Source of the DNA: Alcanivoracaceae bacterium
GTDB taxonomy: Bacteria; Pseudomonadota; Gammaproteobacteria; Pseudomonadales; Alcanivoracaceae
Assembly (NCBI GenBank): GCA_029212745.1
Contig: JARGOL010000016.1
Span: forward strand, 1-64,000
DNA length: 64,000 nucleotides
Direction of reading: 5' to 3'
Shown piece by piece: positions 2,852-23,653 of the stretch. A program made the translations under genes and the position numbers. How positions within the stretch are numbered: position 1 is the first letter of the stretch; every line of letters starts with the position of its first letter. Under the pieces are notes generated by a model. It was not told the DNA's origin and searched no databases. It worked only from the letters and a program-made list of their open reading frames with translations.

Positions 2852-3982
2852 TCAACCCCGCTCGGCGATCGGCACCACCTTGCGCAGTTCCTCACCGGTG
2901 TACTCCGCACTGGGACGGATGATGCGGTTATCCGCACGCTGCTCCATCACGTGTGCCGCCCAGCCGGTGAGTCGGCTCATCACGAAGATCGGCGTGAACA
3001 GCTTGGTGGGAATGCCCATGAAGAAATACGCCGAGGCATGGAAGAAATCGGCGTTACAGAACAGCTTCTTCTCGCGCCACATGACTTCCTCGCAACGCAC
3101 GGATACCGGATACAGCACCGTGTCACCCACATCCGCAGCCAGCTTTTCGGACCACTGCTTGATGATGGCGTTACGCGGATCAGACTCGCTGTAGATGGCG
3201 TGGCCGAAGCCCATGATCTTTTCCTTGCGCTCGAGCATGCCCATCATTTCTTTCTCGGCATGATCCGGATCGCTGAACTTCTCGATCATGTCCATGGCCG
3301 CCTCGTTGGCACCGCCATGCAGCGGTCCACGCAGGGAGCCGATGGCACCGGTGATGCAGCTGTGGATATCGGACAGCGTCGACGCACACACACGGGCGGT
3401 GAAGGTGGACGCGTTGAATTCATGTTCCGCGTACAGGATCAGGGAAACATTCATGACCCGCTCATGCAGCTCATTGGGCTTCTCGCCACGCAACATGTGC
3501 AGGAAGTGCGCACCGATGGAATCGTCGTCGGTGTTTTCATCAATACGCACGCCATCATGGCTGAAGCGGTACCAGTAGCAGATGATGGACGGGAACACGG
3601 CCAGCATCCGGTCGGTGGCATCCTGCTGCTGGTCAAAACTGGTTTCCGTTTCCAGGTTGCCGAGCATGGAGCAACCGGTACGCATGACATCCATCGGATG
3701 GGCATCCCTGGGAATGCGCTCCAGCACTTCCTTGAGTGCCTGGGGCAGACCGCGCAGGGTCTTCAGCTTGGCCTTGTAGGCATCGAGCTCTGCCTGCTTT
3801 GGCAACTCACCCTTGAGAATCAGGTGGGCCACTTCCTCGAACTCGCAGTTCTCCGCCAGGTCCTTGACGTCATATCCGCGGTAAGTCAGACCGGAGCCGG
3901 ATTTTCCCACCGTGGACAGTGCCGTCTTGCCAGCCACCTGGCCACGCAGGCCTGCACCACCGAGTTTCTTGCCTTCTGCCAT
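2852..3982 (-). CDS. prpC: 2-methylcitrate synthase PrpC
   Basis: Citrate-synthase family, 376 residues. It condenses propionyl-CoA with oxaloacetate to 2-methylcitrate. Family signatures are LRGPLHGGANEAAM (substrate-binding His) and GFGHAIYSESDPRN in the C-terminal half. I chose the ATG at 3982 because GGAGAAGGA lies just upstream on the coding strand and the protein then starts MAEGKKLGGAGLRGQ as in other PrpC proteins; the open frame extends 14 codons further without support. It lies between prpB and acnD. Its propionyl-CoA preference is inferred from this context. Confidence 0.95.
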   Translation of the reverse strand: MAEGKKLGGAGLRGQVAGKTALSTVGKSGSGLTYRGYDVKDLAENCEFEEVAHLILKGELPKQAELDAYKAKLKTLRGLPQALKEVLERIPRDAHPMDVMRTGCSMLGNLETETSFDQQQDATDRMLAVFPSIICYWYRFSHDGVRIDENTDDDSIGAHFLHMLRGEKPNELHERVMNVSLILYAEHEFNASTFTARVCASTLSDIHSCITGAIGSLRGPLHGGANEAAMDMIEKFSDPDHAEKEMMGMLERKEKIMGFGHAIYSESDPRNAIIKQWSEKLAADVGDTVLYPVSVRCEEVMWREKKLFCNADFFHASAYFFMGIPTKLFTPIFVMSRLTGWAAHVMEQRADNRIIRPSAEYTGEELRKVVPIAERG

Positions 3983-4051
3983 TTTCCTTCTCCTCCAGTT
4001 TTCGGGCCGCCTCTGTGAAATCAAAGCGGTTGGTGAGGAGCCTTGAGCTTG

Positions 4052-4150
4052 CCCTCACCCTGTCCCTCTCCCAGCGGGAGAGGGAACCGTTATTCATGTT
4101 CAGTGCCATTCAAAGCCCCTCTCCCTGCGGGAGAGGGGTTGGGGTGAGGG
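4052..4150. repeat. REPIN-like repeat, complete two-hairpin unit
   Basis: This is the clearest complete copy: CCCTCACCCTGTCCCTCTCCC with its GGGAGAGGG partner, a short spacer, then GCCCCTCTCCC with GGGAGAGGGGTTGGGGTGAGGG. The two halves are inverted relative to each other. It ends three bases before the prpB stop, in the prpB-prpC gap. Confidence 0.88.
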
Positions 4151-4153
4151 CTC

Positions 4154-5041
4154 TCAGCCCTTCCCCTTGGCAAACAACGCGTCGAGCTTCTGCTCGTAGT
4201 CGTGGTAATTGAGGAAGTCGTACAGTTCCATGCGGGTCTGCATGCTGTCCACCACGTTCTGCTGGTGGCCGTCCTTGCGGATTGCCTCGTACACGGCCAG
4301 CGCGGCCTTGTTCATGGCACGGAAAGCCGAAAGCGGATACAGGATCATGTCAGCGCCCGCGTCCTTCAGTTCGTCGCGGTTGAACAGCGGTGTGGCGCCA
4401 AATTCAGTGATGTTGGCCAGCAGCGGCACGTCGCCCAGGCCCTGCTTGAACGCCTTGTAGTCTTCCAGCGTGTGCACGGCTTCGGCAAAGATGCCGTCCG
4501 CACCGGCGTCGATACAGGCCCGCGAACGCTCGATGGCCGCTTCCAGGCCGTCTTTCTGGAATGCATCGGTGCGCGCAATGATAAAGAAGTCGTCATCGGT
4601 CTTGCCATCCACAGCTGCCTTGACCCGGTCGACCATCTCTTCCTGGCTGACGATTTCCTTGTTCGGACGGTGACCACAGCGCTTCTGCGCCACCTGGTCT
4701 TCCAGATGCACCGCACCGGCACCGGCCTTGATCATTTCCTTCACCGTACGGGAGATGTTGAACGCCCCGCCCCAGCCGGTATCGATATCCACCAGCAGCG
4801 GCACCTCGGTGGCACTGGAAATCCGGCGCACATCCTCAAGCACGTCATTCATGCTGGTCATGCCCAGGTCCGGCAGGCCATAGGAAGCATTGGCGACACC
4901 GCCGCCTGACAGGTATATGGCACGGTAACCCACGCGCTCTGCCATCAGGGCGCAGTAGGCATTGATGGTGCCCATGATCTGTAACGGCTGCTCTTCAGCC
5001 AGGGCCTTGCGGAAACGCCCGCCGGCGGTCAGTTTGCTCAT
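4154..5041 (-). CDS. prpB: 2-methylisocitrate lyase PrpB
   Basis: PEP mutase/isocitrate lyase superfamily, 295 residues, which splits 2-methylisocitrate into pyruvate and succinate. The active-site loop reads [10 protein letters not shown] near residue 122, with the catalytic Cys in the KRCGH form of the family motif. VDIDTGWGG supplies metal-binding Asp residues near residue 88. The start overlaps the stop of the GntR regulator by four bases, so the two are translationally coupled and share the promoter upstream of the regulator. Confidence 0.96.
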
Positions 5042-5778
5042 TGTGTCTCCCTGTGATTATCGGGTGCGGCCGACAGCGCCTCGGCGCCTTTTGGGCCGCC
5101 CCCGGCGCCGCCAACGCGGCCTTGTGATTCGATGTTTTCGCGCGCACGGCTGATATGCCGGCGCATCAGAAGTTCTGCCATTTCCCCGTCGCCGGATTCG
5201 ATCGCCTCGACAATGCGGCGATGCTCGGCCAGTGCGCGCTGGGGCCGGTTGGCCACGGTGGAAAACTGGTAACGGTACATGCGCACCAGGTGGTACAGCT
5301 CGCCAATGAGCAGATCGATCAGGGTCTGGTTATGGGAGCCGTGGATAATGCGGTAATGGAAGTCCAGGTCGCCCTCACGCTGGAAATAGGCGGTGTCTTC
5401 CTGCAGGTCCTGCTGCTGCTCGTGCTGGCTGAGCAACCTGTGCAGGCCGGTCACTTCTTCGGCTGTCATGTGTTCGGCGGCCAGACGCGCAGCCATGCCC
5501 TCCAGGGCTTCGCGCACGCGGTAGATCTCGATCAGGTCCTCGCCCTTGAGCTGGGCCACCCGGGTACCCACATGGGGCACCCGTTCGAGCAGCTTGCGCG
5601 ATTCCAGCCGGCGGATGGCCTCACGCAGGGGCCCGCGGCTGACGCCATAGCGGGCGGCCAGCTCGGTCTCGCCCAGCTTGGTCCCCGGCTTGAGTACGCC
5701 CAGGACAATATCGTCCTGCAGGCGGGCAAAGACCCGCTCGGACAGGGTGCGACCATCGGTTTGGGAGCTTTCAGCCAT
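5038..5778 (-). CDS. GntR-family (FCD domain) regulator of the methylcitrate operon
   Basis: A 246-residue FadR-type GntR regulator. The winged helix-turn-helix covers about residues 10-80 ([23 protein letters not shown]). The C-terminal FCD ligand domain has the Asp/His pattern expected for a metal site ([21 protein letters not shown]). First in the operon and overlapping prpB, it most likely senses a cycle intermediate and regulates itself and prpBC-acnD; GntR-type PrpR proteins hold this place in Pseudomonas. The ligand is not visible from sequence. Two operator-like TTGTTGACAA sites lie upstream. Confidence 0.85.
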
Positions 5779-5917: not shown

Positions 5918-8167
5918 CTATGGCGCGGTGCACCCGCCACCGCCATCCGATTCCTGCGCCTGGCCCTGCACAGCACCGCCCAGCAGGGACAGGAATTCCC
6001 GCCGCAGCACCGGCACCTGGCCGTTGTCCGGCAGGTTCGGATCAAAGAATTCCTTCTTCAATTGCTGGCTCTGGTACTGGTCCAGCCACAGGGCGCGCAC
6101 CTCATTGTCAAAATTGGTATCGCCAAGGCGAAGGATGGGGGCGGTGGTGTTCGGGCTGCCCGTTGTACCCAGGTCGATACGCCCGCGTATCAGGGTACCG
6201 TACTGGGGAATGTAATCCGGGCTCTGGTCATCCGCCAGGTCAGCCTCGCCCACCAGGTAGATCGCCACACCCACAGAGCGATTGCCGCTGTCATCGTCAC
6301 GCAGCGTGCGGGTGACAAAGCCGACCTTGTACTCCTGGATCTCGCCGTCACCGTCAATGCCATCCACCAGGGTGACCGGGTCAACGGCCGAGCAATCCTG
6401 GTCACGGTCGGTAACGATGGTGCCGTCATCCAGGAACTGCACCACCACATCGCCCTGGTCACCAGGGACAAACTCGCGGCGTTGTTCCTCGGTAACAGGG
6501 AAACCATTGGGGTAATCGGTGTCACCCAGCAACAGCGTATTGTAGTTCAGGTTCTGCGGATCGCCGTTTTCATCCTCGACGATCTCGTTTGGCGGAATGT
6601 CATCGCAGGTGGTCTGCTCAACATAACCGGGCGGCGTCTCGTCGCCAGGCAGCACGCAGGCCTTGAAGAACGTCAGCCGATAGAACGGTGGCAACGCATC
6701 AATCAGCCCGGCGTCCGTGCCGCCGGCGATAAGACCGGTACGGGCCACCTTGTAGCCGAGACCATCCGGGGAACCGAAGGACGCATCACCCAGCAGTGTG
6801 CCGCCCAGGCGCGCCAGGTCGTCCTCATTGCCGGTTTCGGTGACGTCATAGATTTCCTCACCGTCATCGACCGGATAATCCTCATCAAAATCCACCCGGC
6901 CATCCAGGCTCAGGCCGTCGTACATGACGCCACCGATGAGGCGCCCTGACAGGGACAGGTCCGTGGCGCCGAACTCCGGGTCGTTATAATCAAACAGGGT
7001 ACGCAGGCCAATAGTGCTGCCGGGTGCGCCACCGAAGTACAACTGCTCGTCAAGCAGGGACCCGGCATTGAAAACGGCCAGGTCATTGGACACGCTCTGG
7101 GTATCCAGCTCCCCTTCATTGTCCAGGTTCAGGCCGCCGAAGTTGCCAATGCCAACGATGTCACCATCCGGGTACACCAGGGCCGTCATCACCAGCGACA
7201 GGCGCTGGTAGTCAATATTCTCGTCACCGAATGCCAGCGCGTAGAAGGCGTTGGCCGGACTGTTGTGCTCGAGCTGGAACAGGCCGGCGCGGGCGCGGTT
7301 GGATGCCGCGGCAGCGGCGCCGATGGCGCCACTGTTGGCATCGCCTTCCGCCGGCCACGCCGGTGTCGGATCCAGGTCTTCCATGGCAGCAATGGCGTCA
7401 TCCACTTCATCACTGACAGCCGTGCGCCAGCTGTCCCAGGCAGACACGAAATCCGCGTAATTGGCGTAGTCGGCGGCATCGAAACGCTGGCCGGAGGACG
7501 TCAGCGGGACGACGGCATCAAACTCGGCGCTGGTAACGTTGTGCGCGGCGTTGGGGATTTCCAGATAGACGTCATCGGCCGGGTCACCACTGTTGTCGGA
7601 GTGGTTACCATCCAGTACGGCCAACAGGGCCGCCCGGGTGGACACCGCCTTGTCGGCGCTGGGAGTACGCTCGGGGGTGTTGACCAGGTCCGCCACGGCC
7701 ACCTGGAAAAAGCCGGCACTGGCGCCACACTCGGCAGAATTCCTGCCTGAACAACGCGGCAGCCGCGCCGAACCAATATAGAAACGCTTGCCGAACTCGA
7801 TCGGGCGACGCCCGATAAAGAACGAAATGGTATCGGAATCCAGCGGGCAGCGGGCGATATGCTGGGGCAGGCCGCGGCTGTTACCCGGCGCTCCCGGCTC
7901 GGCCACCGGCACATAGAAATCGATATTGCCGCAGGTGTAGCCAATGTTGGTCACCACGGCGCTACGCACACCCGCCGGCGTCTGCACGCCAGCAACGAGT
8001 TCGATTTCCAGGGCTTCCTGGTCCGGGTCCAGGGGGTCGGAGGTACCTCCGGCAATCAGGCTTCCCTGCACCGAGGTGCCCTCGGAAAAGTCCTCACCGG
8101 AGTTACAGCCGGCGAGGAACAATGCCAGCAGGACAGCTGTGATCTTGAATATCTGCAAGTTTCTCAT
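5918..8167 (-). CDS. Large lipoprotein, FilF-like, last gene of the fil-like cluster
   Basis: 749 residues beginning MRNLQIFKITAVLLALFLAGC, a clear lipoprotein signal with lipobox LAGC. The mature part is acidic and rich in Asp, Gly, Asn and Thr, with few Cys (a CSAVD segment and a terminal GGGCTAP). No enzyme motif was recognised. I chose the start at 8167 because the signal peptide begins there; two in-frame ATGs lie 9 and 21 bases upstream. It is last in a run that holds a C39 peptidase, two beta-barrels and a MalM-like lipoprotein. Acinetobacter FilF, a surface protein annotated as pilus assembly, has the same position by memory, so FilF-like is an inference from context. Confidence 0.6.
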   Translation of the reverse strand: MRNLQIFKITAVLLALFLAGCNSGEDFSEGTSVQGSLIAGGTSDPLDPDQEALEIELVAGVQTPAGVRSAVVTNIGYTCGNIDFYVPVAEPGAPGNSRGLPQHIARCPLDSDTISFFIGRRPIEFGKRFYIGSARLPRCSGRNSAECGASAGFFQVAVADLVNTPERTPSADKAVSTRAALLAVLDGNHSDNSGDPADDVYLEIPNAAHNVTSAEFDAVVPLTSSGQRFDAADYANYADFVSAWDSWRTAVSDEVDDAIAAMEDLDPTPAWPAEGDANSGAIGAAAAASNRARAGLFQLEHNSPANAFYALAFGDENIDYQRLSLVMTALVYPDGDIVGIGNFGGLNLDNEGELDTQSVSNDLAVFNAGSLLDEQLYFGGAPGSTIGLRTLFDYNDPEFGATDLSLSGRLIGGVMYDGLSLDGRVDFDEDYPVDDGEEIYDVTETGNEDDLARLGGTLLGDASFGSPDGLGYKVARTGLIAGGTDAGLIDALPPFYRLTFFKACVLPGDETPPGYVEQTTCDDIPPNEIVEDENGDPQNLNYNTLLLGDTDYPNGFPVTEEQRREFVPGDQGDVVVQFLDDGTIVTDRDQDCSAVDPVTLVDGIDGDGEIQEYKVGFVTRTLRDDDSGNRSVGVAIYLVGEADLADDQSPDYIPQYGTLIRGRIDLGTTGSPNTTAPILRLGDTNFDNEVRALWLDQYQSQQLKKEFFDPNLPDNGQVPVLRREFLSLLGGAVQGQAQESDGGGGCTAP

Positions 8168-8295
8168 AACACCCATTCTAGTCGTCACGCTCCACAGGCC
8201 CTACGGGCGATAGGTCGGGCGGCACTGGTTGCCCGATAATCCGGCTGCCAGTCTTTGACCGGCCCGCCCCTGAATGGTTCCAGCGCAGCCGTGGC

Positions 8296-9198
8296 TCAGC
8301 GCTCGCCGGCGCTGCCCGTTACGGTAAAGTCGCCCGCCAACGCGGGCGGCGCATCATAGTAGCCCTGCTGCTGCGGCAAAGCGACCACCCCTGCACCCTC
8401 TTCGACGGTGGCATAGGGCAGGTAAAATGCCACATACCGGGCCCCCGGCGGCACCGACAGCACGCCCTGGTAAAACGCGTAGCGGTACCAGGTCTCCGGA
8501 TAGCGGCGCTGGAAGGGCCGGTCCACCACTTCCAGCGGCGTGCCCTCTCCGTCCATGAAAACCAGGGCCGGGTGCAGGTAGTCACCCGCCTTGCCGATGA
8601 ATCCGCGCAGCGTCAGCCTGCCCACCGCTGCCGTCAGCCGCACCGCCATGGCGGGCATGGGCCGGTCCATGACCACCACTTCATCGGCGTCGCCCAGGGC
8701 CAGGGACAGCTCCTCGCCCACGTCCAGCGGCCGGGCCTGCTCGCGCGTATGCAGGCAGCAATCAGCGCGCACCCCGGTGATGCGCTCAACAAATTCAACC
8801 GCCGGGTCAGCCACCGCTTCGTATCCGGGCGGGCGCTCCTGGCGGTACTCGCGCTCTGCCACCAGGTCGACTTTCTCCTCGATCAACTGGCCGTCCGGCC
8901 CGTAATAGGTGACAAAGCGGTTACGATCCCTCTCCTCCAGCTTCTGCTGGACTTCCTCATCAGTCTGGTAGGCCGACGCCGGCAGATCTGCCCCCGGCCC
9001 GGCGCCGCCGGCCGGTGTCGCCTGGCTGCCAGCCCCACTGCCCTGCCCCTGTTCAGCCGCCGGACGCTCCACCGTGACCAGGTTGCCCTGGGCGTCGACG
9101 TAGGTATACAGGTTGCCGCGCGCCGTGGGGTCAGCGGTGCAGGCCAGCAGCGACGCCAGGGCGGCAAAGGTGAGAAAGCGGAAATATCGGGGACGCAT
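8296..9198 (-). CDS. MalM-like lipoprotein, FilE-like
   Basis: 300 residues. The lipoprotein signal runs MRPRYFRFLTFAALASLLAC. An N-terminal segment, LYTYVDAQGNLVTVE, resembles DUF4124-type modules. A long Gln/Gly/Ala-rich linker follows around residues 45-80. The C-terminal part, with VPPGARYVAFYLPYATVEEG, resembles the MalM family of periplasmic proteins. I start at 9198 because the open frame upstream lacks signal features. No maltose genes are nearby, so a maltose role is unlikely. The setting next to FadL- and C39-encoding genes suggests an envelope scaffold in the same apparatus. Confidence 0.6.
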   Translation of the reverse strand: MRPRYFRFLTFAALASLLACTADPTARGNLYTYVDAQGNLVTVERPAAEQGQGSGAGSQATPAGGAGPGADLPASAYQTDEEVQQKLEERDRNRFVTYYGPDGQLIEEKVDLVAEREYRQERPPGYEAVADPAVEFVERITGVRADCCLHTREQARPLDVGEELSLALGDADEVVVMDRPMPAMAVRLTAAVGRLTLRGFIGKAGDYLHPALVFMDGEGTPLEVVDRPFQRRYPETWYRYAFYQGVLSVPPGARYVAFYLPYATVEEGAGVVALPQQQGYYDAPPALAGDFTVTGSAGER

Positions 9199-9287
9199 GA
9201 TCGAATCCAGGTGGCTCGCCGTTGCTGCGGGGGATGATGCCCTGCCCCGCTGCACCAGGGCAGGCACGGGGCAGGCATCCAGGCCGG

Positions 9288-10955
9288 TCAGAACGCCGTG
9301 CGGAAAGCCATACCAATGATGGTAATGGTCGCCTCGGTTTCAATGTCGAGACCGGCGTACGGGTTATACACCACGTTATCCACGCCCGTACAGTTGGCCA
9401 GGCAGCTGGTGTTTGCCGGGATCCGGTCTTCGCTGCGCAGCTGCGCCACACCCAGGTCAATCTCGGTGTCCTTGTCCCACTGGTAACCCAGGCCCAGCGA
9501 GTAGTAGCGCGCTTCGTTGATTGGTACCAGTGGCGAGCGCCGGTCATCCGGAATAGCGGAGGCACGAGGCTCATAGCCAGCCCGCAGCTGGATACGGCCG
9601 GTGAGGTCATACTGGACACCGAAGGCCATGTTCCAGGTGGACTGGAACTCCAGCGGCAGACGCAGACGGGTGTTGGTGGAGCCCGGCGAGAACAGCCGCG
9701 CCAGGGCGGTGACCGCAGAGCTGCGGTCGAATTCGAATGCCCAGGCGTCCCATTCCTCGTAGTCGGTCCATACGGCATCAATATTGAACTGCCAGCGCTC
9801 GAACGGCCGCAGTTTGATACCGGTCTGGAAATGCGCGGGCATGGTGACGTCCATGTTGATCAACCCGGTTTCCTGGGCACCGATACCGGCCGGCAAACCC
9901 AGCACAGCCAAGGCCAGTGCACCCGTGGGGCTGCCACCGATACCATTCAGGGTTTCCTGCGTGGCATTGGCGTAATCAAGGGTGTAATCACCATTGAGGT
10001 GGACTTCCACCGGGGCATGCCAGACCGCACCCCAGGCAAAGGAATCCGTGGGCTCCCACAGCACGCCAAGGTTCCATGACGGGCTCAGTCGCTGGTCCAT
10101 GGCCACTTCCAGCGAGGCCAGGTTCTTGAACGGCCCGAGCCCCTCGTCGGGGCGACAGACGCCGAACAGCAGCACGTCCAGGGCGAAGTTGTCCTCGCCG
10201 GCGAAGGGCGCACAGATGCTCTCGTCCAGAATCCGGGCGAAACCGAGCAGGTCGTTGGGAGAACGGAAATCCGTCTCCAGGTACATGGCCTGGTATGACA
10301 GGCCAATGGAGGCGCCCACCGACAGGGTATCCGAAACCTGGTAACCCACTGACGGCGACAGATAGGTAATACGCTCCAGCGCTACCCGCTTGCCGAGGTA
10401 ATTGCCCGGGTCATCATCGCTGCGGTAAAAACCGGCAGCCAGCGGCAGGTAGGTGGCGGTGCCGAAGGTAAACTTGGAGCCCGGCGGCTTGATGGAGAAC
10501 GCCGGCAACGGACCCGCCACCAGCGGACCTGGCGGCAGGTCCACCGTGTCGTTCAGGATCGGCACATAAAAGCTGATGCCCTCGACGGTGCTGGTGCTGG
10601 TCTTGAATTCCCGGCACACGTCAGAACCGTCGTCTGGCGCATCGGCACACACGACCGGGTCGTCAGAGAAGCCGAACACGCCGAAATTGGGCGGTGCAGA
10701 AAAGGTGCTTTCCAGGTTGAAATCCACACCCAGGAACTGCAGGTCCATGCGCCGCCCTTCCAGGCGCGCCAGACCGGCCGGATTGAAGTGGATTGACATA
10801 ATTCCCGGCGGATCGGCAGTGACCGCATGGCCAAGGCTCATGGCGCGCACGTCAAGGGCGATATTGGTCGCCAGCTGAGCCGACACCATCCCCGATGCGA
10901 GCAGCGCGCAGGCGGAGACAATCCCCCGTAGCAATGTGCCTGTTATTCTTGTCAT
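9288..10955 (-). CDS. OmpP1/FadL/TodX-family outer-membrane protein, FilD-like
   Basis: 555 residues: cleavable signal peptide (ACALLASGMVSA), then the FadL-family N-terminus with SLGHAVTADPPGIMSIHFNPAGLARLEG, where the NPAGL segment forms the hatch domain. It ends in GMAFRTAF with a terminal aromatic residue as in outer-membrane barrels. FadL proteins take up long-chain fatty acids and hydrocarbons. This one is 31 bases from the preceding barrel gene and probably belongs to the same envelope system. At 555 residues it is longer than E. coli FadL (about 446), with extra extracellular-loop sequence. RBS-like GGAAG precedes the ATG. Confidence 0.85.
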   Translation of the reverse strand: MTRITGTLLRGIVSACALLASGMVSAQLATNIALDVRAMSLGHAVTADPPGIMSIHFNPAGLARLEGRRMDLQFLGVDFNLESTFSAPPNFGVFGFSDDPVVCADAPDDGSDVCREFKTSTSTVEGISFYVPILNDTVDLPPGPLVAGPLPAFSIKPPGSKFTFGTATYLPLAAGFYRSDDDPGNYLGKRVALERITYLSPSVGYQVSDTLSVGASIGLSYQAMYLETDFRSPNDLLGFARILDESICAPFAGEDNFALDVLLFGVCRPDEGLGPFKNLASLEVAMDQRLSPSWNLGVLWEPTDSFAWGAVWHAPVEVHLNGDYTLDYANATQETLNGIGGSPTGALALAVLGLPAGIGAQETGLINMDVTMPAHFQTGIKLRPFERWQFNIDAVWTDYEEWDAWAFEFDRSSAVTALARLFSPGSTNTRLRLPLEFQSTWNMAFGVQYDLTGRIQLRAGYEPRASAIPDDRRSPLVPINEARYYSLGLGYQWDKDTEIDLGVAQLRSEDRIPANTSCLANCTGVDNVVYNPYAGLDIETEATITIIGMAFRTAF

Positions 10956-10986
10956 TGATTACTTCCGCTGACGTCGCAATGCATTA

Positions 10987-12126
10987 TCAGGCACCGGGCT
11001 TGAGGCCGGTGATATCAATCGGGAGTGAGAACCCAAGCAGTACATCCGGAGAATCTTCCGTCAGGCCATAACCGAAGCTGATGTTGATGATCCGGTTGCT
11101 GGCAGTACGCAGGCCCATGGACGTGTTGACCACAGACGAGGTGGAGTCCTCGGACAATGCCGACGTGCCATCGTTGAAGTTGAAGCGGGTATCAAAGTTG
11201 TACGACTGCTGGTAACTGGCGCTGAGCGACACTTCGTAGCTCAGCGAATAGGCGAAGCCCATGGAGAAGCTCAGGCTGTCACCGGTTTCCACTTCTTCCA
11301 GCACCCGTGAACCACGGGCCTGCTTGAGGTCCGTGGCATCAAACGCATGGGTATAGCCAAGGGAGCCGAACAGCACCACCGGATCCACCACCTTGCTCAT
11401 GCTGACACCACCACCGACAGAGTAATAACCCTTGCCGCTAGACACTTCGGTGTTGGTATTGATCTCGTAAGGGCTGTCACCGGTGGCCGTGGAAAGCGAG
11501 GCATACAGGGTGGTATTCATGGCACCCACTTTCACCGGGAACGGCTGGTAACGCAGGCTGAAAGACACATCGCCCAGGGCTGCCTGGGAGACATCTTTCT
11601 GCGTGTCGTACTTGTAGACCACCGGCAGACGGGTGTTGAAGGTCAGGTTATTCCAGATGCCATAATCAAGGGACAGGTCGGAACCGAAGCTGTGCTGGGC
11701 GTCATTCTGGATCAGGAAGCGGTTGATGTTGCCGTCGTCACCGATATTGATATCAATACGGTCATCGCGGAAATAGCTGTAGCTACCGCTGAAGGTCATG
11801 CTCATCTCGCCGGACGGCAGCAGTGAGTACTGCTTCTCGGCCGCCTGGAAGACCTCTTCCAGGTTCTTTTCCTGGGTGACGTCCGCCTCTTTCTGCTGCA
11901 GTGCCTCACGGGCACGGTCAGCCGCCGACTGCGGTGCCTCAGGCTCAGCCGCCTGCTCAGCGTCGGCATCCGCCGGCGCATCAGCCTGCTCTTCGGCCGC
12001 CTGCTCCGGTGTGCCCTCCGGCGCCGGGCCGGTGGCATCTTCCTCTGCGGCCCAGGTCTGCGCTGACAGCAGCATCAACAGTGCCAGCCAACCTGCACCA
12101 GCCTTGCAACCCCCATACATCTTCAT
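10987..12126 (-). CDS. Beta-barrel outer-membrane protein with acidic linker, FilC-like
   Basis: 379 residues. A signal peptide (ALLMLLSAQTWA) is followed by about 75 residues rich in Ala, Glu, Asp and Gln (EGTPEQAAEEQADAPADADA), then a domain from about residue 95 with alternating strands typical of barrels (MTFSGSYSYFRDDRIDINIG, TTLYASLSTATGD). The disordered acidic segment could cross the periplasm or bind cations. I use the ATG at 12126, which has AAGGG eight bases upstream; a second ATG follows two codons on. It lies between the C39 peptidase and FadL-like genes with short gaps. No substrate can be named. Confidence 0.65.
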   Translation of the reverse strand: MKMYGGCKAGAGWLALLMLLSAQTWAAEEDATGPAPEGTPEQAAEEQADAPADADAEQAAEPEAPQSAADRAREALQQKEADVTQEKNLEEVFQAAEKQYSLLPSGEMSMTFSGSYSYFRDDRIDINIGDDGNINRFLIQNDAQHSFGSDLSLDYGIWNNLTFNTRLPVVYKYDTQKDVSQAALGDVSFSLRYQPFPVKVGAMNTTLYASLSTATGDSPYEINTNTEVSSGKGYYSVGGGVSMSKVVDPVVLFGSLGYTHAFDATDLKQARGSRVLEEVETGDSLSFSMGFAYSLSYEVSLSASYQQSYNFDTRFNFNDGTSALSEDSTSSVVNTSMGLRTASNRIINISFGYGLTEDSPDVLLGFSLPIDITGLKPGA

Positions 12127-12177
12127 GTGCGTCGCCCTTGTTGTTCTAATCTCTTGGTCCACTCAATCACCAACCCG

Positions 12178-13014
12178 TCAGTTCTTGAAGTAGGTCCGTG
12201 TTGGTACGTTTAGGATAATGGTCGGCTCCGGATGGTCTGCCGGCACCGGTTCACGGGTATCGGCATCCACCAGTACCCGCTGCAACGTGGCCGCCTCGTC
12301 AGCACGGTTTTCCAGCGGCGCGGTAAACACCGGGAACTCCTGGAACGCGAGGCGATTGATGGTTTTCTCGTCGATCAGTCGCAGATCCCAGTTGGTCAGC
12401 TCCAGATCGGGCTGCGGCTCGAAGCCGTTCGGGAATACGATGAACAGCACATTGTCTGTCCATACCTGCTTGAATTTGGTTTCGGTAAAGCTGATGTTGC
12501 CCAGCGCCGGGTCCGCCACGTAGATGTGGCCGTCCTGGTATTTCTTGAGCACCACGAAGTGCTTGAAACCACTGTAGTGGATGGGAACGATGGCCGGGTG
12601 GTCAAGATCGCGAAGGTCTTCAAAGCTGGCACGGAAGCCACCGGAGGGGTGACCGAGCGCTGTTGCCAGGCGCTTCATGTCGAGCAGCGAAAAGCCGCGC
12701 CGGGCAACGATCTTGTCGTATTCGCCAAAGCGCAACAGGCCTTCCATGATCTGGCGTTCCTGGAACTGACGGCCGAGGTAGCCGTTCAGCACCGTGGTCA
12801 GGGCGGCAGACCCACAGGAATAGTCGTACGCCTGGCGCACCACGTTCTGGTATTTGAATTGGGAGACGGGCTTGACCACCAGGCCCCGCTCGACGTGGCG
12901 CTCCGGTACCGTCGGGTGCTCGTAATAGACGTAACCCTGCGGATACTCCTGCACCACGGCGGCCTCGTTGACCGCTACAAATATGAGCGCAACCCCAAGA
13001 ATCGTCGCCAGCAT
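12178..13014 (-). CDS. Exported C39-family cysteine peptidase, FilB-like
   Basis: 278 residues with an N-terminal hydrophobic signal or anchor (MLATILGVALIFVAVNEAAV). The papain-like C39 triad is visible: Cys67 in YDYSCGSAAL, His152 in GFKHFVVLKK and Asp168 in YVADPALG. C39 domains normally sit at the N-terminus of ABC exporters and cut double-glycine leaders in the cytoplasm. This one has no ABC part and appears to act outside the inner membrane. About 90 further residues of unknown role follow. I chose the ATG at 13014 because the upstream frame is low-complexity. A likely client is the secreted protein encoded at 15151-15972 (inference). Confidence 0.75.
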   Translation of the reverse strand: MLATILGVALIFVAVNEAAVVQEYPQGYVYYEHPTVPERHVERGLVVKPVSQFKYQNVVRQAYDYSCGSAALTTVLNGYLGRQFQERQIMEGLLRFGEYDKIVARRGFSLLDMKRLATALGHPSGGFRASFEDLRDLDHPAIVPIHYSGFKHFVVLKKYQDGHIYVADPALGNISFTETKFKQVWTDNVLFIVFPNGFEPQPDLELTNWDLRLIDEKTINRLAFQEFPVFTAPLENRADEAATLQRVLVDADTREPVPADHPEPTIILNVPTRTYFKN

Positions 13015-13178
13015 GAACCTGGACCCATTGCCATTATTGTTATTTATATGTCCCGCCAGGCGGGACTGTTCCGGGCCGTATGGTACGCACGGACTGCCAC
13101 TGCGGCAACTGCGCGTCCATCGAACCTTGCTCATCCTACCTCATAGGAGGTGTGAGCATTTGTTGGCTTTTTGTAACG

Positions 13179-14813
13179 TCACTGTGACGCCGTATCAGCC
13201 CCCTGCTCCGGCATTTCCAGCGAATAGCCATAACGCTCGGCCGCCTCCTGCAGGTGCGGCAACACCGGCCTCAGATAATCGGCGTAGTTGTGCCAGCGGT
13301 AGCGACTGGCCGTGTACAGGCCCTTACCCACCGCCTGGTAGCTGGGCGTTGCAAGTGACCCGCGTCCTTTGGCGTGCTCGGCGTAGTTGGCCATGCCCGC
13401 GTCCCAGTCGAGACCGAGGAACTCCAGCAGCGGCGTCACCGTGCCCTCAAGATCGCCGATCAGGTCTTCATAGCGGATGTAATGCATCCGGTCCTTGAGC
13501 CCCAGCACCTCTTCGTACTGCCACAGCAGTTTCATCACGTGCCGGTAGAAGCTGGCACCATCATCCAGCACCAGGAAGTTGCTCATGGCGTCGTTCATCT
13601 GGAACGACTGCATGTGGCCGCTGAGCACACAGTCCGCCGGGTGGCGCAGGGCCACGATAAAGCGGGCATTGGGAAACATGCGGGCAATAAAGCCCACATA
13701 GGCCGAGTTCAGCGGCATCTTGTCGATCAGCGTCTGGCCCGGCTTCAGGTCGATATACTTGGCCACCTGGCGGAAATACAGGGCCTGCAGCTCCCTGAGC
13801 TGCTTTTCACTGAACCGGGCCAGGTAGTTCAGGCGGCGCTGCATCAGCTGCAGCCATGAGGCTCCTTCCGGCGGCTTGCCCGCCACTGCTGCCATGGATT
13901 CGCAAACCAGGTTGGCAGAGCGGAAACACGGCGACACGGTCTGCTTTTCCTCGATGGCCACAATGTCCGGGTGACTGTCCAGCACCTGTTCCAGCAGCGT
14001 CGTGCCGGAGCGCGGAAAGCCGATCAGGAACACCGGCGCCTGGTCATGGGGCACCGATGGCGTCCAGCCGTCGACCCATTCGCGGGTAAAACGCTTCTTG
14101 AAACCCTCGATCATCATGCGCAGCGCATTGCGCTGCACCGGCACCCCTTCAAGCCGGTACTGCATGGCGTTGGCCAGCTTCAGGGTCTTTTCCGCATTGG
14201 CAAAATCCTTTTTGCGGTCGTAGGCGGCCGCCACGGCTTTCCAGCTGTGGGCCACCAGCCGATGATCGCCCTCGAAGCCGGCCAGGTAGGCCTGCAACGG
14301 CCCCAGCAGGCTGTCGTCATCACGCAGCGCATTCCAGGCATCGGCACGAATGCGCCAGACGTTGGGTTGCAGCTCTGGCGGAAACGCCTTGTCCAGAATC
14401 GCCAGCGCCTTTTCACTGTTGAGGGTGCGCTCTTCCACGATGGCACTGAGCAGCACCTGGTAGTCGGTCCAGTGACCCAGCGCCTTGCAGCGATCCAGAT
14501 GAAAGGGAATCTTGTTCCACTGCGCCGTGGCCTCGTAGAAATTCATGGCCAGCTGGTGGACACCGAGGTTGTTGGGCGCCAGCTCGATAAAACGCGCGAG
14601 CATGGTCGCGGGGGTGGCGTCGTCACCCACGGTCAGTGAGCGCTTGAAGAAATCCCGGGCCAGGTCCAGTTGCAGCACGCCGTTCTGCATCAGCGCATCC
14701 AGCAACTTGTAGGCATCGCCGAGCCGGTTGCCTTCCAGCGCCTGTTTGCACAGCGCCACGGCCTGGTTCTTGTCAATCTGCTGGCGCGTTGCGCCACTGG
14801 AAGCCTGCGTCAT
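13179..14813 (-). CDS. TPR-sulfotransferase fusion protein (first of three)
   Basis: 544 residues. The N-terminal 250 or so are helical and TPR-like. The C-terminal half is a sulfotransferase domain with the 5'-phosphosulfate motif PVFLIGFPRSGTTLLEQ and a 3'-phosphate motif in ALRHPADCVLSG. Such proteins use PAPS to sulfate an acceptor that cannot be named here; the architecture is reminiscent of protein-tyrosine sulfotransferases. I placed the start at 14813 (MTQASSGATRQQ) because the frame upstream has no protein character. It lies between the FilA-like gene and the C39 peptidase, separated from FilA by a terminator and a repeat, and may modify a cluster product. Confidence 0.8.
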   Translation of the reverse strand: MTQASSGATRQQIDKNQAVALCKQALEGNRLGDAYKLLDALMQNGVLQLDLARDFFKRSLTVGDDATPATMLARFIELAPNNLGVHQLAMNFYEATAQWNKIPFHLDRCKALGHWTDYQVLLSAIVEERTLNSEKALAILDKAFPPELQPNVWRIRADAWNALRDDDSLLGPLQAYLAGFEGDHRLVAHSWKAVAAAYDRKKDFANAEKTLKLANAMQYRLEGVPVQRNALRMMIEGFKKRFTREWVDGWTPSVPHDQAPVFLIGFPRSGTTLLEQVLDSHPDIVAIEEKQTVSPCFRSANLVCESMAAVAGKPPEGASWLQLMQRRLNYLARFSEKQLRELQALYFRQVAKYIDLKPGQTLIDKMPLNSAYVGFIARMFPNARFIVALRHPADCVLSGHMQSFQMNDAMSNFLVLDDGASFYRHVMKLLWQYEEVLGLKDRMHYIRYEDLIGDLEGTVTPLLEFLGLDWDAGMANYAEHAKGRGSLATPSYQAVGKGLYTASRYRWHNYADYLRPVLPHLQEAAERYGYSLEMPEQGADTASQ

Positions 14814-14949
14814 AAAACCCCGTCCACACCCGGCCGCCGTACGACCACTGTTGTTATTGTGCGCCCTATTATGGGGGTCAGGCACCGCGCTGCAAGCTGA
14901 AATGCCTGACGCCACGATGCCTGCGCCACAACAGACCACCACCCACCCC

Positions 14950-15044
14950 CTGCAGGAGCGGCGTGCACGCCGCGAACAACCTCACAGCAGGCAAGGTGCA
15001 GCAAAGCGACGGAGGGATTCGCGGCGCACACGCCGCTCCTACAG
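14950..15044. repeat. Second REP family, inverted pair
   Basis: CTGCAGGAGCGGCGTGCACG at 14950 is met by its inverted partner ending CGCCGCTCCTACAG at 15044, with about 40 bases between the two arms. Each arm is itself palindromic around GCGGCG/CGCCGC. It lies between the TPR-sulfotransferase start and the FilA terminator. Confidence 0.75.
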
Positions 15045-15104
15045 GAGGGATGGACTAACGTTGCTTCAGGACGGAAAAAGAAAGGCAGGGCTTCGATCAG
15101 GCAT

Positions 15105-15136
15105 AAAAAAAGGCCCGGCAGAGCCGGGCCCTTTTT
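15105..15136 (-). terminator. Terminator behind the FilA-like gene (works both ways)
   Basis: GGCCCGGC-AGA-GCCGGGCC hairpin flanked by A-runs and T-runs. It lies 15 bases after the stop of the FilA-like gene, which suggests strong independent expression of that gene. Confidence 0.9.
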
Positions 15137-15150
15137 GTGCAACCACGCCG

Positions 15151-15972
15151 TTAGTTCTTACCAGCGATGGTCACGGTGGTGCCGTTCAGGTTCAGGCCGA
15201 TGATCTCGATGTCACCGATAGCCGGGGCGGTGCCCAGCTGTACAGAGGACATCTGCAGGCTCACACCCACAGTACCAGCAGTCGCACCCAGCTGACTGAA
15301 GGTCAGGGCCAGGCCAGAGGTCTCGACGTCGCCGGTCATGGACACGGTCAGGTTACCGGAACCGTCAGCATCTTCCATCACGATCTGGCTCACGGAGATA
15401 GACTCGCCAGAAGACGCGTCGTTCAGCGCGAAGTTGTTGATGGTGATGCCGTTGGTGATGGCAGTGTCCAGAACAATCATGCTGCCCTGCGGCTCGGCAG
15501 AACCCAGCTGGATGTTCAGGTCAACCTGGCCCAGGGTGATGCTCATGGAGTCCAGGATGTTGGCCGAGGTGTTGGTCACGGCGTTACCCATGCCGGAAGA
15601 ACCAGCCACCTGGATGTCACCGGTGTTGATGGTGGTGCCAGTCGGGATGGTTACGGCCACGTTCAGAACCGGAGCACCGGTTGCGCCGCCGTCAGCGTCG
15701 ATGTCTACATCGATACCGCCAGCACCAGTGGACAGGCTCATGTTGTTGATAACCAGAGCACCCGCCACACCGGTCAGGGAACCAGCAGTGGAACCGTCAC
15801 CGTCGTGGATGATGATGTCCATGGTGGACGCCGGAACGTCGATGTTCAGGGACAGACCGTCCTGACCGGTTACGTCAGACAGTGCGGCGTCGTCCATGGC
15901 TTCCATGGCGAAACCGGAAACCGGCAGAGCGGCAATGGCAGAAGCCAGAGCAAGTTTCTTGAAACCTTTCAT
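15151..15972 (-). CDS. Secreted FilA/DUF6160-like protein
   Basis: 273 residues. A signal peptide (MKGFKKLALASAIAALPVSG, likely cut after FA at residue 22) is followed by MEAMDDAALSDVTGQDGLSL. The LSDVTGQDG segment at residues 31-39 is a hallmark of these proteins as I recall them and resembles a double-glycine leader. The rest is low-charge, rich in Ser, Thr, Gly, Ile and Asn with repeated INN and VQ strands (beta-solenoid or fibre-like), without Cys. The start has GAGGAG upstream. It probably forms the abundant surface or secreted component of the neighbouring cluster. The name FilA comes from Acinetobacter annotation and is not proof of pili. Confidence 0.7.
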   Translation of the reverse strand: MKGFKKLALASAIAALPVSGFAMEAMDDAALSDVTGQDGLSLNIDVPASTMDIIIHDGDGSTAGSLTGVAGALVINNMSLSTGAGGIDVDIDADGGATGAPVLNVAVTIPTGTTINTGDIQVAGSSGMGNAVTNTSANILDSMSITLGQVDLNIQLGSAEPQGSMIVLDTAITNGITINNFALNDASSGESISVSQIVMEDADGSGNLTVSMTGDVETSGLALTFSQLGATAGTVGVSLQMSSVQLGTAPAIGDIEIIGLNLNGTTVTIAGKN

Positions 15973-19659: not shown

Positions 19660-21539
19660 TATTCCTCCGGCACCGCCACCTGCCGCTTCGCCAATGCCTC
19701 ACGGAACGGGTCGAGCAGATCACCATAGCGCTTGTAGCGTGCTGACGCCGACGTAAACAGGCCCTGGCGCACCTGGTTGACGCTGGCCGTGTTCACCTGG
19801 CGGGTATTCTTGTGGAATTCCAGGCACGCGGCCTCGAACGGCAGCTCACAGAAATCCAGTAACTCGCGGGTCACCCGTTCCTGCTCCTGCACCAGCGTCT
19901 CATAGCGCATTTCATACATGGGGATGCCACAGGCTGTCTGCCAATGCTCAACCAGCTCATCAAAATGGGCAAGCTGCTGGGCCAGGTCATCCAGGTGGTA
20001 GGTGAAATGCTGGCCGGTGTTGAAGATGCGCTTGTAGGCGCCGAGCATGATATCCAGCGGGTGTCGGCGCACCACCACAAAGCGGGCCCTTGGGAACAGC
20101 ATCTTCAGCATCCCCACGTGACGGAACAGGGAGATATTCTTGTCAGTGACCACGCCGCTGTCGAGATCGCTGTCGGCAAGAAAATCAAGAAACGCCTTGC
20201 GCATCACCGGCACCCATTGATCCCGGGGCAGATTGAACATTGCATCCTCAGTGCCAACAGCCAGAATTTTCTTGGCGTTTTCCGAACTCACGCTAATGGC
20301 ACGGTTTTCGCCACCGGCCTTTACTGCACTGTGGCTGGCCAGTATCTGTTCGGTCAGGGTGGTGCCACTGCGGGGCATGCCCAGAATGAAGATCGGCGCA
20401 TAGTCCGTCGGCGCCTGTTCCGGCGAATGCACGACCGAATCCGCATCCGGGAAACGACGCTTCATTTCATTCTTTGCCGCTTCCATGCCGTTGTGATTAT
20501 AGGCTGCAATCTGGTGCTGGAAGGCATTGCCCTTATGCAACCAGCTGATCTCGCCGGCCAGGTCACCGCGTTTTTCCAGCGCCTCGGCGATGGCAAAACT
20601 CAACAACGCCTTACCATAAGTTTCCTGGGAATCAATCAGTGCTTCCATACGCGCCAGTTCGTCATCGGAGACGCTGCCCGCATCCATGAATACCCGTGAC
20701 TGCCAGGCGTTGGGGTAGTTGTCGTTCAGCGCCAGCGATTCCTTGATGGTCCTGATCGCTTCGTCTTTCTCCCCGAGGTAGTTCAGGGATACCGCCTTGA
20801 CGCTGAGCCATTCCGCTTTCTGGTTGACGGATACCGGTTCGCCGAATGCCTCAAGCGCTTCCAGCACCTTCCTGCTGTCACCCATGGCAGAGAGGATCGA
20901 CAATTTCTGGCGACAGGCACGCTCATAGGCGGCCTCACCGGACACCGAGTCGACGATGGCCAGCGCCTGCTCCAGACGATGGGTTTTCTCGGCGGCAAGC
21001 GCCATCTCCAGTCGCACGCCCATGTCCGGATCACTGCCGGCATCCGCGCGGCTGTAGAGCGTCCAGGCTTTCTGGTAGTCGCCCAGCATCAGCGCTACCC
21101 GCCCTGCCCAGACCTGGAAATCGGCGCGCGCCCGGTCCAGCTCCGCGCCCTTGAGCAAGAACGGCAATGCCCGCGCCGGCTCATTGGCATGCGCCAGTGC
21201 CCGGCCGATGCCGTGGTAGGCCAGCGCATTATTGGCGTCGATCTTGATGGCCATTTCAAACGCCTGCACCGCTTCCTGCAGCTTGCCGGTGGCGAGGCGG
21301 ATATTGCCGATATTCAGCCATGGTGACAGCTGCATGCCGTCGATATCGAGTATGCGACGGAACAGTGTCAGCGCACTGTCGGTGTCACCGCGTTGCAGCT
21401 GTACCACAGCACGCTGCTGCAGCAATTCGAGATTGAGGGGGTCGGCGCTGGACGCCTCTTTCAGGAGTTCTGCGGCTTGTTCCAGGTTGCCCTGGCCCAG
21501 CGCAGCCTGTGCATCATCAAGTAGATTCTGTTGGCTCAT
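19659..21539 (-). CDS. TPR-sulfotransferase fusion protein (second)
   Basis: 626 residues. About 330 N-terminal residues form TPR repeats with clear 34-residue periodicity (for example ALAYHGIGRALAHANEPARA). The sulfotransferase domain starts with PIFILGMPRSGTTLTEQILA near residue 383 and has VVRRHPLDIMLG as 3'-phosphate motif. Its C-terminal half is close to that of the next gene (both end with QVRQGLF or QVRQGLY and RRYGDLL-type sequence), so the two are tandem duplicates. The acceptor is unknown. Confidence 0.82.
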   Translation of the reverse strand: MSQQNLLDDAQAALGQGNLEQAAELLKEASSADPLNLELLQQRAVVQLQRGDTDSALTLFRRILDIDGMQLSPWLNIGNIRLATGKLQEAVQAFEMAIKIDANNALAYHGIGRALAHANEPARALPFLLKGAELDRARADFQVWAGRVALMLGDYQKAWTLYSRADAGSDPDMGVRLEMALAAEKTHRLEQALAIVDSVSGEAAYERACRQKLSILSAMGDSRKVLEALEAFGEPVSVNQKAEWLSVKAVSLNYLGEKDEAIRTIKESLALNDNYPNAWQSRVFMDAGSVSDDELARMEALIDSQETYGKALLSFAIAEALEKRGDLAGEISWLHKGNAFQHQIAAYNHNGMEAAKNEMKRRFPDADSVVHSPEQAPTDYAPIFILGMPRSGTTLTEQILASHSAVKAGGENRAISVSSENAKKILAVGTEDAMFNLPRDQWVPVMRKAFLDFLADSDLDSGVVTDKNISLFRHVGMLKMLFPRARFVVVRRHPLDIMLGAYKRIFNTGQHFTYHLDDLAQQLAHFDELVEHWQTACGIPMYEMRYETLVQEQERVTRELLDFCELPFEAACLEFHKNTRQVNTASVNQVRQGLFTSASARYKRYGDLLDPFREALAKRQVAVPEE

Positions 21540-21748: not shown

Positions 21749-23653
21749 CTACTGGCCGTGGGCAAGACCGAGGCGATGCGCATAGGCTTCCACATCAATG
21801 CCTTCATGGGCCAGCGCCTGCACCAGAGGCGACAGCAGGTCACCATAGCGCCGCCAGCGTTGCACGGCATCCGGGTAAAGACCCTGCCGCACCTGTTGCA
21901 CGCTGGCCGTGCGCACCGCCGCCTGGTTGCCGGTAAAGTTGAGCACCTGTGGCTCCCAGTCCAGGCCCAGGTCATCGAGTACCGCACGCATGACCTGTTC
22001 GGGGGCGTTCACCAGCTGCTCATAGTGCACGGTTGTCAGCGCCATGCCCGCCACCGAAGACCAGTGCGTGACACACTCATTGAACAGCCGGCAGGAACGG
22101 GCCAGGGTGTCATAGCGACAGGTGGCGGCGTGGCCGCTGGTAAAAAATTTGCGAAAGGCGCCGAAGCAGACATCCACCGGGTCGCGCTGCATGACGATGA
22201 AGCGTGCCTGCGGGAACGCGGCATGAAGCAGGCCGGCATAGAGATAGTGACTGATGGCCTTGTCCGTGATCAGCTCGGGCCGCGGGGCATCGGCACGGCC
22301 GCCCTGCTTTTGCAGAAACGCGCCGTAGTAGTCACGCATCTGTTCCTGCAGGTACCTGGCCAACGCCGCCTGCTGCGGGCCGTCCAGCGCCTGTGCCGTG
22401 GTCAGTGAAAAGTGCGCGCGGGCCTGCGCCATGGCATGGCCAAACGCCAGCGATTCGCCACCGGCGGCCACCTGCGAGTGACTGCTGAGGATCTGCTCCA
22501 TCAGCGTCGTGCCCGAGCGCGGCAGCCCGAGGATGAAGATCGGCTCGGGGTTCGAGGACGTGCTGTCAGCCGCGGAGTGCTCCCCGGTGACGTGGCGCCA
22601 GGCCGCCGCGGTCTGCTCCATCTCCTGGCAGGCCTGCTCTGCGCCACCGGCCACCAGGGCATTGGCGCGCTCAAGTTGCGCCACCTCCCGCTGCAGCTCG
22701 CCCCGCCGGGCATGGATTCGCGCCAGGCAGAAACCGGCGGCGGCGGCACGCCCATCATCGCCGCTTGCCAGTGTTTCCAGGTGGTCAATGTCCTCGCTAC
22801 GGAAATCAGCCGGACGCAGCTCGGCCAGGCGGCTCCAGGCTTCCATGACATTGCGGTCCTCGACCAGCGCCGCACGAAAACTTTCCACGGCCGCATCCGG
22901 CTGGTTCGCCTGCAGCTGCATCACACCCTGCAAGGCCAGCATGTCACCGCGCAGCTGCTGCATCTGCGGCAGCCACTTCTCGATACACGCCTGCGCCGCC
23001 CGGTCATCGGCAAGACTGACATGGCAATGGGTGATGCGCAGGCGCGCCTCATCCGGCTGCGGTGCCGACAGGGCGTCCCTGAAACAGGAAAGTGCCTGCC
23101 ACGGCCGGTCCAGCTTCATGGCGCACTTGCCCGCCAGCATGGCCAGGCCGGTGTCGTCGCGCGCCCTGTTCCGGGCCTTGTCGAGAAGCGCCAGGGCCTC
23201 GGCATATGAACCGCGCCGGTACAGGCTGTCGCCCAGCAGGTGGGCCGCCCGCGCCAGGCCCGGGTCCAGTGACAGGGCCCGTTGCAGGTGCTCTGTGCCC
23301 CGGGCGTCACCCGCTGCCAGGAGCAGCTCACCGGTGCCACATTCAGCCAGGGCATTGCCCGGCTCTGCCTTGAGCACCTGCTGGTAACACTGCAAGGCTT
23401 GCTGGTGCTGGCCGGCCTGGCACAGTACCGCAGCAATATCGAACCACGGCTGCACATAGTCGGGCTGGGCCGACACCGCCCGGCGTAACAGGTCTACCCC
23501 CTGTTGCGCCTCACCCGATGCCACGGCAATCAGGCCCTCGCCGTGCAACTGCACCGCCGTCGGCGCCGACCCGGCCCGGGCCAGTGCCGCGCGGGCCTTG
23601 GCGGGCTTTCCCTGCGCCAGGGTCTTGTGGATTTTCTTCAGTAATGGGTGCAC
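21749..23653 (-). CDS. TPR-sulfotransferase fusion protein (third)
   Basis: 634 residues with N-terminal TPR repeats (ALQCYQQVLKAEPGNALAEC) and a C-terminal sulfotransferase domain (PIFILGLPRSGTTLMEQILS; VMQRDPVDVCFG, with Asp where relatives have His). The start is GTG at 23653 with no strong RBS, so it could lie further in. It is separated by 209 bases from the second copy, with no gene in the gap. Confidence 0.8.
   Translation of the reverse strand: MHPLLKKIHKTLAQGKPAKARAALARAGSAPTAVQLHGEGLIAVASGEAQQGVDLLRRAVSAQPDYVQPWFDIAAVLCQAGQHQQALQCYQQVLKAEPGNALAECGTGELLLAAGDARGTEHLQRALSLDPGLARAAHLLGDSLYRRGSYAEALALLDKARNRARDDTGLAMLAGKCAMKLDRPWQALSCFRDALSAPQPDEARLRITHCHVSLADDRAAQACIEKWLPQMQQLRGDMLALQGVMQLQANQPDAAVESFRAALVEDRNVMEAWSRLAELRPADFRSEDIDHLETLASGDDGRAAAAGFCLARIHARRGELQREVAQLERANALVAGGAEQACQEMEQTAAAWRHVTGEHSAADSTSSNPEPIFILGLPRSGTTLMEQILSSHSQVAAGGESLAFGHAMAQARAHFSLTTAQALDGPQQAALARYLQEQMRDYYGAFLQKQGGRADAPRPELITDKAISHYLYAGLLHAAFPQARFIVMQRDPVDVCFGAFRKFFTSGHAATCRYDTLARSCRLFNECVTHWSSVAGMALTTVHYEQLVNAPEQVMRAVLDDLGLDWEPQVLNFTGNQAAVRTASVQQVRQGLYPDAVQRWRRYGDLLSPLVQALAHEGIDVEAYAHRLGLAHGQ

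Follow-up and report, generated by a model that had tools for sequence, protein, structure and literature searches.

How the subunit of the Fil pilus reaches the cell surface is the question raised by a gene cluster in a 64,000-nucleotide stretch (the window) of contig JARGOL010000016.1 from an Alcanivoracaceae bacterium. Seven minus-strand open reading frames (ORFs) are confirmed at 5918-15972, as described in the original prediction: filA, a sulfotransferase gene, filB, filC, filD, filE and a gene in the filF position. Passages of the Acinetobacter literature already assign FilA a pilus-subunit role, terming it "the Fil pilus subunit" in strain Tol 5 (PMC11784438). Further passages record the Acinetobacter genes A1S_0690-0695 as putative type III pili that are high in the pellicle (PMC4256060), FilF in the pellicle (PMC3203104), a 71-fold increase of FilC and a 12-fold increase of FilF in biofilm (PMC8792954), and, for filA, a fitness defect of 3.3 in the liver with none in the spleen (PMC6185781). 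No assembly machine for the Fil pilus was found described in the open-access literature. The export route, the tag and the cleavage site proposed here are new. The best reading of this pilus locus, known already but blank as to mechanism, is a fibre exporter of the FapD/FapF type that is gated by a leader. Quite likely the Fil pilus is made by that route, with Sec export of FilA, a cut by FilB at Q37/D38 and passage through FilC.

FilB is a homologue of FapD, the protease of the Pseudomonas functional amyloid system, and FilC is a homologue of FapF, the outer-membrane channel of that system. In NCBIfam, FilB matches FapD at 2.3e-34 (118.7 bits, under the FapD cut-off of 330) and FilC matches FapF at 1.1e-20 (73.8 bits, under the FapF cut-off of 700). 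The C39 peptidase family PF03412 lies over its Pfam cut-off in FilB, the FilB profile finds the C39 peptidases of PCAT1 and ComA, and the catalytic Gln, Cys, His and Asp (Q61, C67, H152 and D168) are invariant in four aligned rows. The prediction of an exported C39 enzyme is supported, and this enzyme probably matures a client. The 18 best PDB matches of the AlphaFold2 model of FilC (predicted local distance difference test score [pLDDT] of 72) are all FapF structures, with E values of 1e-18 to 4e-16, followed by the COG4313 channel 4rl8 at 3e-9; the model points to a putative polypeptide channel of the FapF type. A C39 gene accompanies the barrel gene in all 20 regions inspected around FilC-type matches (20 of 24 such matches in a class sample of 185 genomes). 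Parts of the Fap literature record that fapD and fapF also occur as pairs in five further phyla (PMC6173800) and state that Fap secretion requires FapD and its active-site cysteine (PMC5557850). The original view of a pilus locus without a known machine is superseded by this FapD-FapF type pair.

Homology to FapD and FapF also invites the view that Fil is another functional amyloid system in which FilA is an amyloid like FapC, which is improbable on several grounds. A tree made by a quick method, with some long branches, places 28 FilB and 24 FapD sequences on two sides of one branch (100 in the Shimodaira-Hasegawa-like approximate likelihood ratio test). FilA lacks the Fap-type Q/N repeat (N+Q, 10.6%). 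Its model shows an ordered beta domain beginning at residue 40 (pLDDT 85), and its match is to a filament that was deposited as pilus-like. None of the seven proteins matches the FapB or FapC amyloid families in NCBIfam or Pfam. The best reading is that membership of the fil cluster in Fap fails for want of a Fap amyloid subunit, yet the cluster works like Fap with a pilus-like fibre.

The filament in question is PDB entry 9XFV, "bacteria pilus (like)", with 25 chains. A profile built from 34 FilA sequences and run against 177,635 distinct PDB sequences has this entry as its single match at E<=10 (E 3.6e-7), and a phmmer search with FilA from Pseudomonas viridiflava leads to this chain as well (E 2.2e-4), with an alignment at its start and a weaker one at the C terminus. 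The 9XFV chain opens with DGVSIAG, aligned to D38-G39 of the window FilA, right behind LSDVTGQ. In the numbering of the entry itself, the alignment spans 38-210, equal to the 173 residues of the chain, so 37 precursor residues seem absent; the signal and leader of the window FilA also comprise 37 residues. FilA is likely the fibre subunit, and the original statement that no pilin gene is present does not survive the finding of this pilin-like gene. Its other half holds, as none of the seven proteins matches a chaperone-usher family in Pfam at E<=0.1. The Foldseek and VIA lists for the FilA model were set aside as a guide to its fold, being filled mostly with barrel look-alikes; the argument rests on the sequence match. 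A generally poor visibility of FilA in tryptic proteomics was considered and found not to be family-wide: the window protein has 1 lysine or arginine in 236 residues, and the median of 36 FilA sequences is 2.5 per 100.

The 15 residues behind the Sec signal of FilA look like a leader of the C39 (double-glycine) type in which Q replaces the last G. The register between the signal and the beta domain is M-12, L-7, V-4, G-2 and Q-1 (M26, L31, G36 and Q37), with the hydrophobic residues at -12 and -7 and the G at -2 that mark double-glycine leaders. The published consensus, as given in part of PMC6959990, is L(-12)xxxE(-8)L(-7)xxxxG(-2)G(-1), and the PCAT1 leader described there forms a helix from -10 to -4, which is 28-34 in FilA numbering; the FilA model has a helix, of low confidence, at 28-35 (-10 to -3). 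All 34 FilA sequences keep T35, G36 and G39, and the conservation of Q37 reaches at least 90%. Many other DUF6160 proteins, the family to which FilA belongs, have D/E at -8. A strict leader rule was applied to 683 proteins with a signal-like N terminus in 102 loci chosen for DUF6160, FilB or FilC. The rule is home-made, as is the signal detection; it agrees with the published consensus at -12, -8, -7 and -2, and includes position -4, which is variable in the published description. It gives 15 hits, comprising 5 in the tandem DUF6160 modules, 9 at FapD/FapF loci and 1 unrelated. A family search with 10 hand-picked, good-looking leader peptides was discarded as yielding weak matches only; their non-self matches are to leader or ribosomally synthesized and post-translationally modified peptide families in 3/3 cases in NCBIfam and 2/5 in Pfam. 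A separate locus in P. aeruginosa PA7 (L231) has an apparent cytosolic-type double-glycine leader peptide, MELLNESEMENVAGG, of bacteriocin-like appearance.

Several observations weigh against cleavage of FilA by FilB at Q37/D38 and against the filament assignment. With A30 at -8 (not D/E) and Q37 at -1 (not G/A), the window FilA fails the strict leader rule. The N terminus of FilB is hydrophobic, its signal peptide being only a candidate, and no experiments on Fil cleavage were seen in the papers found. The leader family TIGR01847 speaks on both sides. In favour of the leader, it gives two matches at E<=10 over four whole fil genomes, a DUF6160 protein (L109) and its tandem neighbour (L108), and over 35 fil genomes 7 of its 19 matches, the best two included, lie in or within 4 kb of a DUF6160 gene and 1 lies in another exported protein. 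Against it, 11 of the 19 are unrelated and elsewhere, the PA7 peptide among them, each match taken singly is weak (E 0.5-8.5), and matches also arise in 6 of 14 control genomes. Foldseek relates FilA to 9XFV at an E value of only 0.063, and 9XFV ranks 19th by Z (5.5) in the VIA list, below mostly barrel proteins with root-mean-square deviations of 5.7-11.7. Disorder of earlier residues, or their omission from the built model, may be the sole reason for the chain start at D. A 105-residue fragment compared with 390 order genomes for the source gene of 9XFV has 0 matches, an uninformative result, and no paper was found for its code, title or cave. Another protease might remove the FilA leader, with FilB reading it and acting mainly elsewhere, by cutting the FilC plug or linker, or with FilB doing no more than docking clients. 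Q, R or K at -1 in many clients, versus the GG/GA of known C39 substrates, agrees with this, as does the suggestion of Rouse et al., in part of their text, that FapD might cut FapF (PMC5557850). It is nonetheless unlikely in view of the conservation around Q37 and the 9XFV chain that starts exactly there. Cleavage of FilA by FilB after Q37 is the preferred reading.

The gene neighbourhoods of FilB relatives show which genes travel with the FilB-FilC pair. FilB has at least 540 relatives, and the counts come from the best 80, which are biased to close kin and in some cases cut by contig ends; they include loci of Alcanivorax, Acinetobacter, Pseudomonas, Thalassolituus, Hahella and others. FilB, FilC and FilD are adjacent in 76 of these 80 loci, FilA is directly upstream of FilB in 72 (a sulfotransferase being allowed between them), and the order B-C-D-E occurs in 54. 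The order A-B-C-D-E(-F) recurs, and the predicted likeness to Acinetobacter fil is supported. The window order A-B-C-D-E fits the Fil system, with the sulfotransferase inserted between A and B.

The sulfotransferase is present in 7/80 loci, which rules it out as a conserved component; it is a local extra. Of the predicted tetratricopeptide repeat (TPR) sulfotransferase, the enzyme family is supported by PF13469, and no Pfam match to TPR is seen. The mature window FilA contains no tyrosine and therefore cannot be a target of tyrosine sulfation. Two further sulfotransferases, these with TPR matches, lie in tandem at 19662-21539 and 21752-23653 on the minus strand, ∼3.7 kb beyond filA.

FilD, FilE and FilF look accessory. 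Relatives of the filF-position protein occupy the same place in 14/80 loci, and no lipoprotein is seen there in two inspected Pseudomonas loci (L141 and L126). FilD, a FadL-type barrel, was rejected as a core component. A FilD match is missing from genome G138 (99% complete), and the sole match in genome G010 (96% complete) has 22.7 bits and lies on a different contig, which places FilD outside the smallest set; since the G010 contig ends just after FilC, only G138 is informative for FilD at the locus itself. The G010 locus (L037, 8365-10357) shows, by eye, an OmpA-like gene between FilB and FilC, and its FilC itself seems to have an OmpA-like N-terminal domain. Two outer-membrane barrels, one of the FadL type, are present as predicted, FilC being of the FapF type. 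The further proposal, in which a hydrophobic substrate would be exported or imported by the barrels and lipoproteins, draws on FilD and on the COG4313 channel next in line for FilC, and is very improbable. FilC is far nearer to FapF, FilA groups with a solved pilus-like filament, and G138 and G010, both with FilB, FilC and DUF6160, manage without FilD or with a weak match elsewhere.

DUF6160 extends well beyond FilA. The genome of the window has seven matches, of which six belong to tandem modules that lie outside the window. Such modules, each with two to four exported proteins of the DUF6160 type (∼230-740 amino acids), lie far from fil at L008 7181-12928, L009 1664-6887 and L010 6747-10416, and their products might be adhesins or minor subunits. 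Other fil genomes also have large DUF6160 proteins, and 35/35 genomes picked from fil loci have 3-9 DUF6160 copies. In the class sample, a strong FilC (198-372 bits) occurs in 4/185 genomes, and exactly the same four, G138 and G010 among them, have DUF6160 and also FilB over 200 bits. In an order sample of 194 genomes, which overlaps the class sample, FilC over 150 bits occurs in 26 and DUF6160 in 25: 24 have both, 2 have FilC only (89% and 65% complete), 1 has DUF6160 only (a match of 25.3 bits, under the cut-off) and 167 have neither. Four order genomes with only a weak FilC have no DUF6160. Part of this link is the operon, as filA is itself a DUF6160 copy. G138 has one FilB-FilC pair and 15 DUF6160 matches, the proteins being small (∼100-180 amino acids by frame; examples in L056, L066, L068, L071 and L072). 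All 14 that are readable have a signal and a leader, and the cargo behind the leader is alike in 7 of 91 pairs at E<=1e-3, leaving nine unlike groups.

Leaders of this kind also stand beside FapD, whose target was stated as unclear in a 2017 text (PMC5557850, in part). An exported ORF with a leader (D/E/Q at -8) lies near the FapD/FapF pair in 18/24 Fap-type loci, with 23 hits in 178 kb near the pair versus 2 in 156 kb further off; two of the 23 look spurious, one being the C39 gene itself. Ten leader-bearing neighbours tested comprise two FapE proteins over the cut-off (L240 and L241), two clear relatives, one marginal FapE (0.007) and five without a family, and for that reason the 18 loci are said to have exported proteins rather than FapE. 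Carriers of a leader ending in LRG[GRK] lie by FapD at L241 5137-5904, L240 5652-6509, L242 3381-4106 and L244 5379-6041. Behind its signal, the Pseudomonas FapE of L241 reads LKDQELATLRGR. Leader-bearing exported proteins, Pseudomonas FapE included, are candidate answers to the FapD-target question. The evidence tilts towards a wider reading in which DUF6160, rather than being a functional domain, is a transplanted export tag, a double-glycine-type leader behind a Sec signal, that would direct many unrelated cargoes to one periplasmic C39 peptidase and a FapF-type channel, with Fil pili and Fap amyloids as two branches of one secretion class gated by leaders and FapE as the missing FapD substrate.

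The proposed sequence of events starts with FilA, which would cross the inner membrane via Sec and keep the 15-residue C39-type leader at its new N terminus. Periplasmic FilB would recognise this leader and cut after GQ, and FilC, a plugged barrel of the FapF type, would pass FilA through the outer membrane for assembly into a filament outside it. FilD, FilE and FilF may serve in anchoring, gating or at the tip. Other DUF6160 proteins of the genome, carrying the same tag, are probably further clients.

FilA is the sole one of the seven proteins that clears its curated NCBIfam cut-off (NF050077, 232.9 versus 220 bits). FilB (NF050078, 2.1e-89, 299.6 bits, cut-off 475), FilC (NF050079, 3.4e-111, 372.2 bits, cut-off 630) and FilD (NF050080, 751.8 bits, cut-off 970) fall below theirs, with the Fil family still the top match for each, which makes the cluster a wider Fil-type relative outside the curated group. 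FilE has a weak NCBIfam match; a lipobox seen by eye supports the predicted lipoprotein, and its MalM-like part matches FilE_C and MalM in Pfam below the cut-off only. The filF-position protein has no family match in NCBIfam or Pfam. Pfam matches in the cluster are to DUF6160, Sulfotransfer_3, Peptidase_C39 and Toluene_X/FadL, and no ABC (ATP-binding cassette) transporter is found among the seven proteins.

Features of the fil cluster in the window, with the basis of each assignment
Feature	Position	Strand	Basis
filA, DUF6160 fibre-subunit precursor (likely), 273 aa	15151..15972	-	NF050077, PF19657, profile match to 9XFV
FilA Sec signal peptide, residues 1-22	15907..15972	-	By eye from sequence
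FilA C39-type leader MEAMDDAALSDVTGQ, residues 23-37, predicted cut after Q37	15862..15906	-	Leader register, model helix, 9XFV chain start
Hairpin and T-run 3' of filA, possible terminator/attenuator	15112..15130	-	z-score -5.3 for 201-nt stretch
Sulfotransferase, start uncertain (ORF to 14942)	13179..14813	-	PF13469 7.2e-39
filB, C39 cysteine peptidase, hydrophobic N terminus, FapD homologue	12178..13014	-	NF050078, FapD, PCAT1/ComA matches
filC, putative FapF-type outer-membrane barrel with N-terminal helix	10987..12126	-	NF050079, FapF, model matches
filD, OmpP1/FadL-type barrel	9288..10955	-	NF050080 3.3e-226, PF03349 5.3e-68
filE, MalM-like C terminus, probable lipoprotein	8296..9198	-	FilE 4.7e-7; lipobox by eye
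filF position, large lipoprotein, no family	5918..8167	-	LAGC lipobox by eye; relatives at this place in 14/80 loci

The hairpin after filA is what a highly expressed subunit gene would be expected to have; terminator-like sites around filA are not above chance (4 versus 2.7 ± 1.7 in shuffles). Past filF, at 2852-5778 on the minus strand, lie genes that we take to be prpC, prpB and a GntR regulator, and genes similar to these neighbours also flank fil in L113 and L123.

The proposal gives the pilus found in Acinetobacter, Pseudomonas and Alcanivorax a concrete route, naming the exact bond, and puts forward a substrate for FapD. DUF6160, read as a sequence tag, would predict which proteins are exported. 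The proposal also suggests what kind of gene cluster probably encodes 9XFV, the "Pilus-like-alpha" filament from a karst cave, which is like FilA in belonging by profile to the same subunit family and in a chain start at the predicted cleavage point; it differs in its weak pairwise similarity to FilA. The Acinetobacter fil locus ("putative pilus system") shares FilA-FilE relatives in the same order, whereas the window has FilB-D under the NCBI cut-offs, an inserted sulfotransferase and a filF-position protein without a detectable family match. The C39 ABC exporters PCAT1 and ComA share the peptidase family and the leader register -12/-7/-4/-2; in contrast, FilB is apparently periplasmic, the cluster has no ABC transporter, and position -1 of FilA is usually Q. 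The Fap system of Pseudomonas shares the C39 peptidase beside a FapF-type barrel, the FapF fold of FilC according to model-to-structure matches, and the kind of leader that Pseudomonas FapE carries behind its signal, as FilA does. The fil cluster differs from it in lacking the FapB/FapC Q/N-repeat amyloid, in the extra FadL barrel and lipoproteins, and in a FilB branch separate from FapD. The leaders seen here contrast with a published remark that canonical C39 sequences are lacking in Fap proteins.

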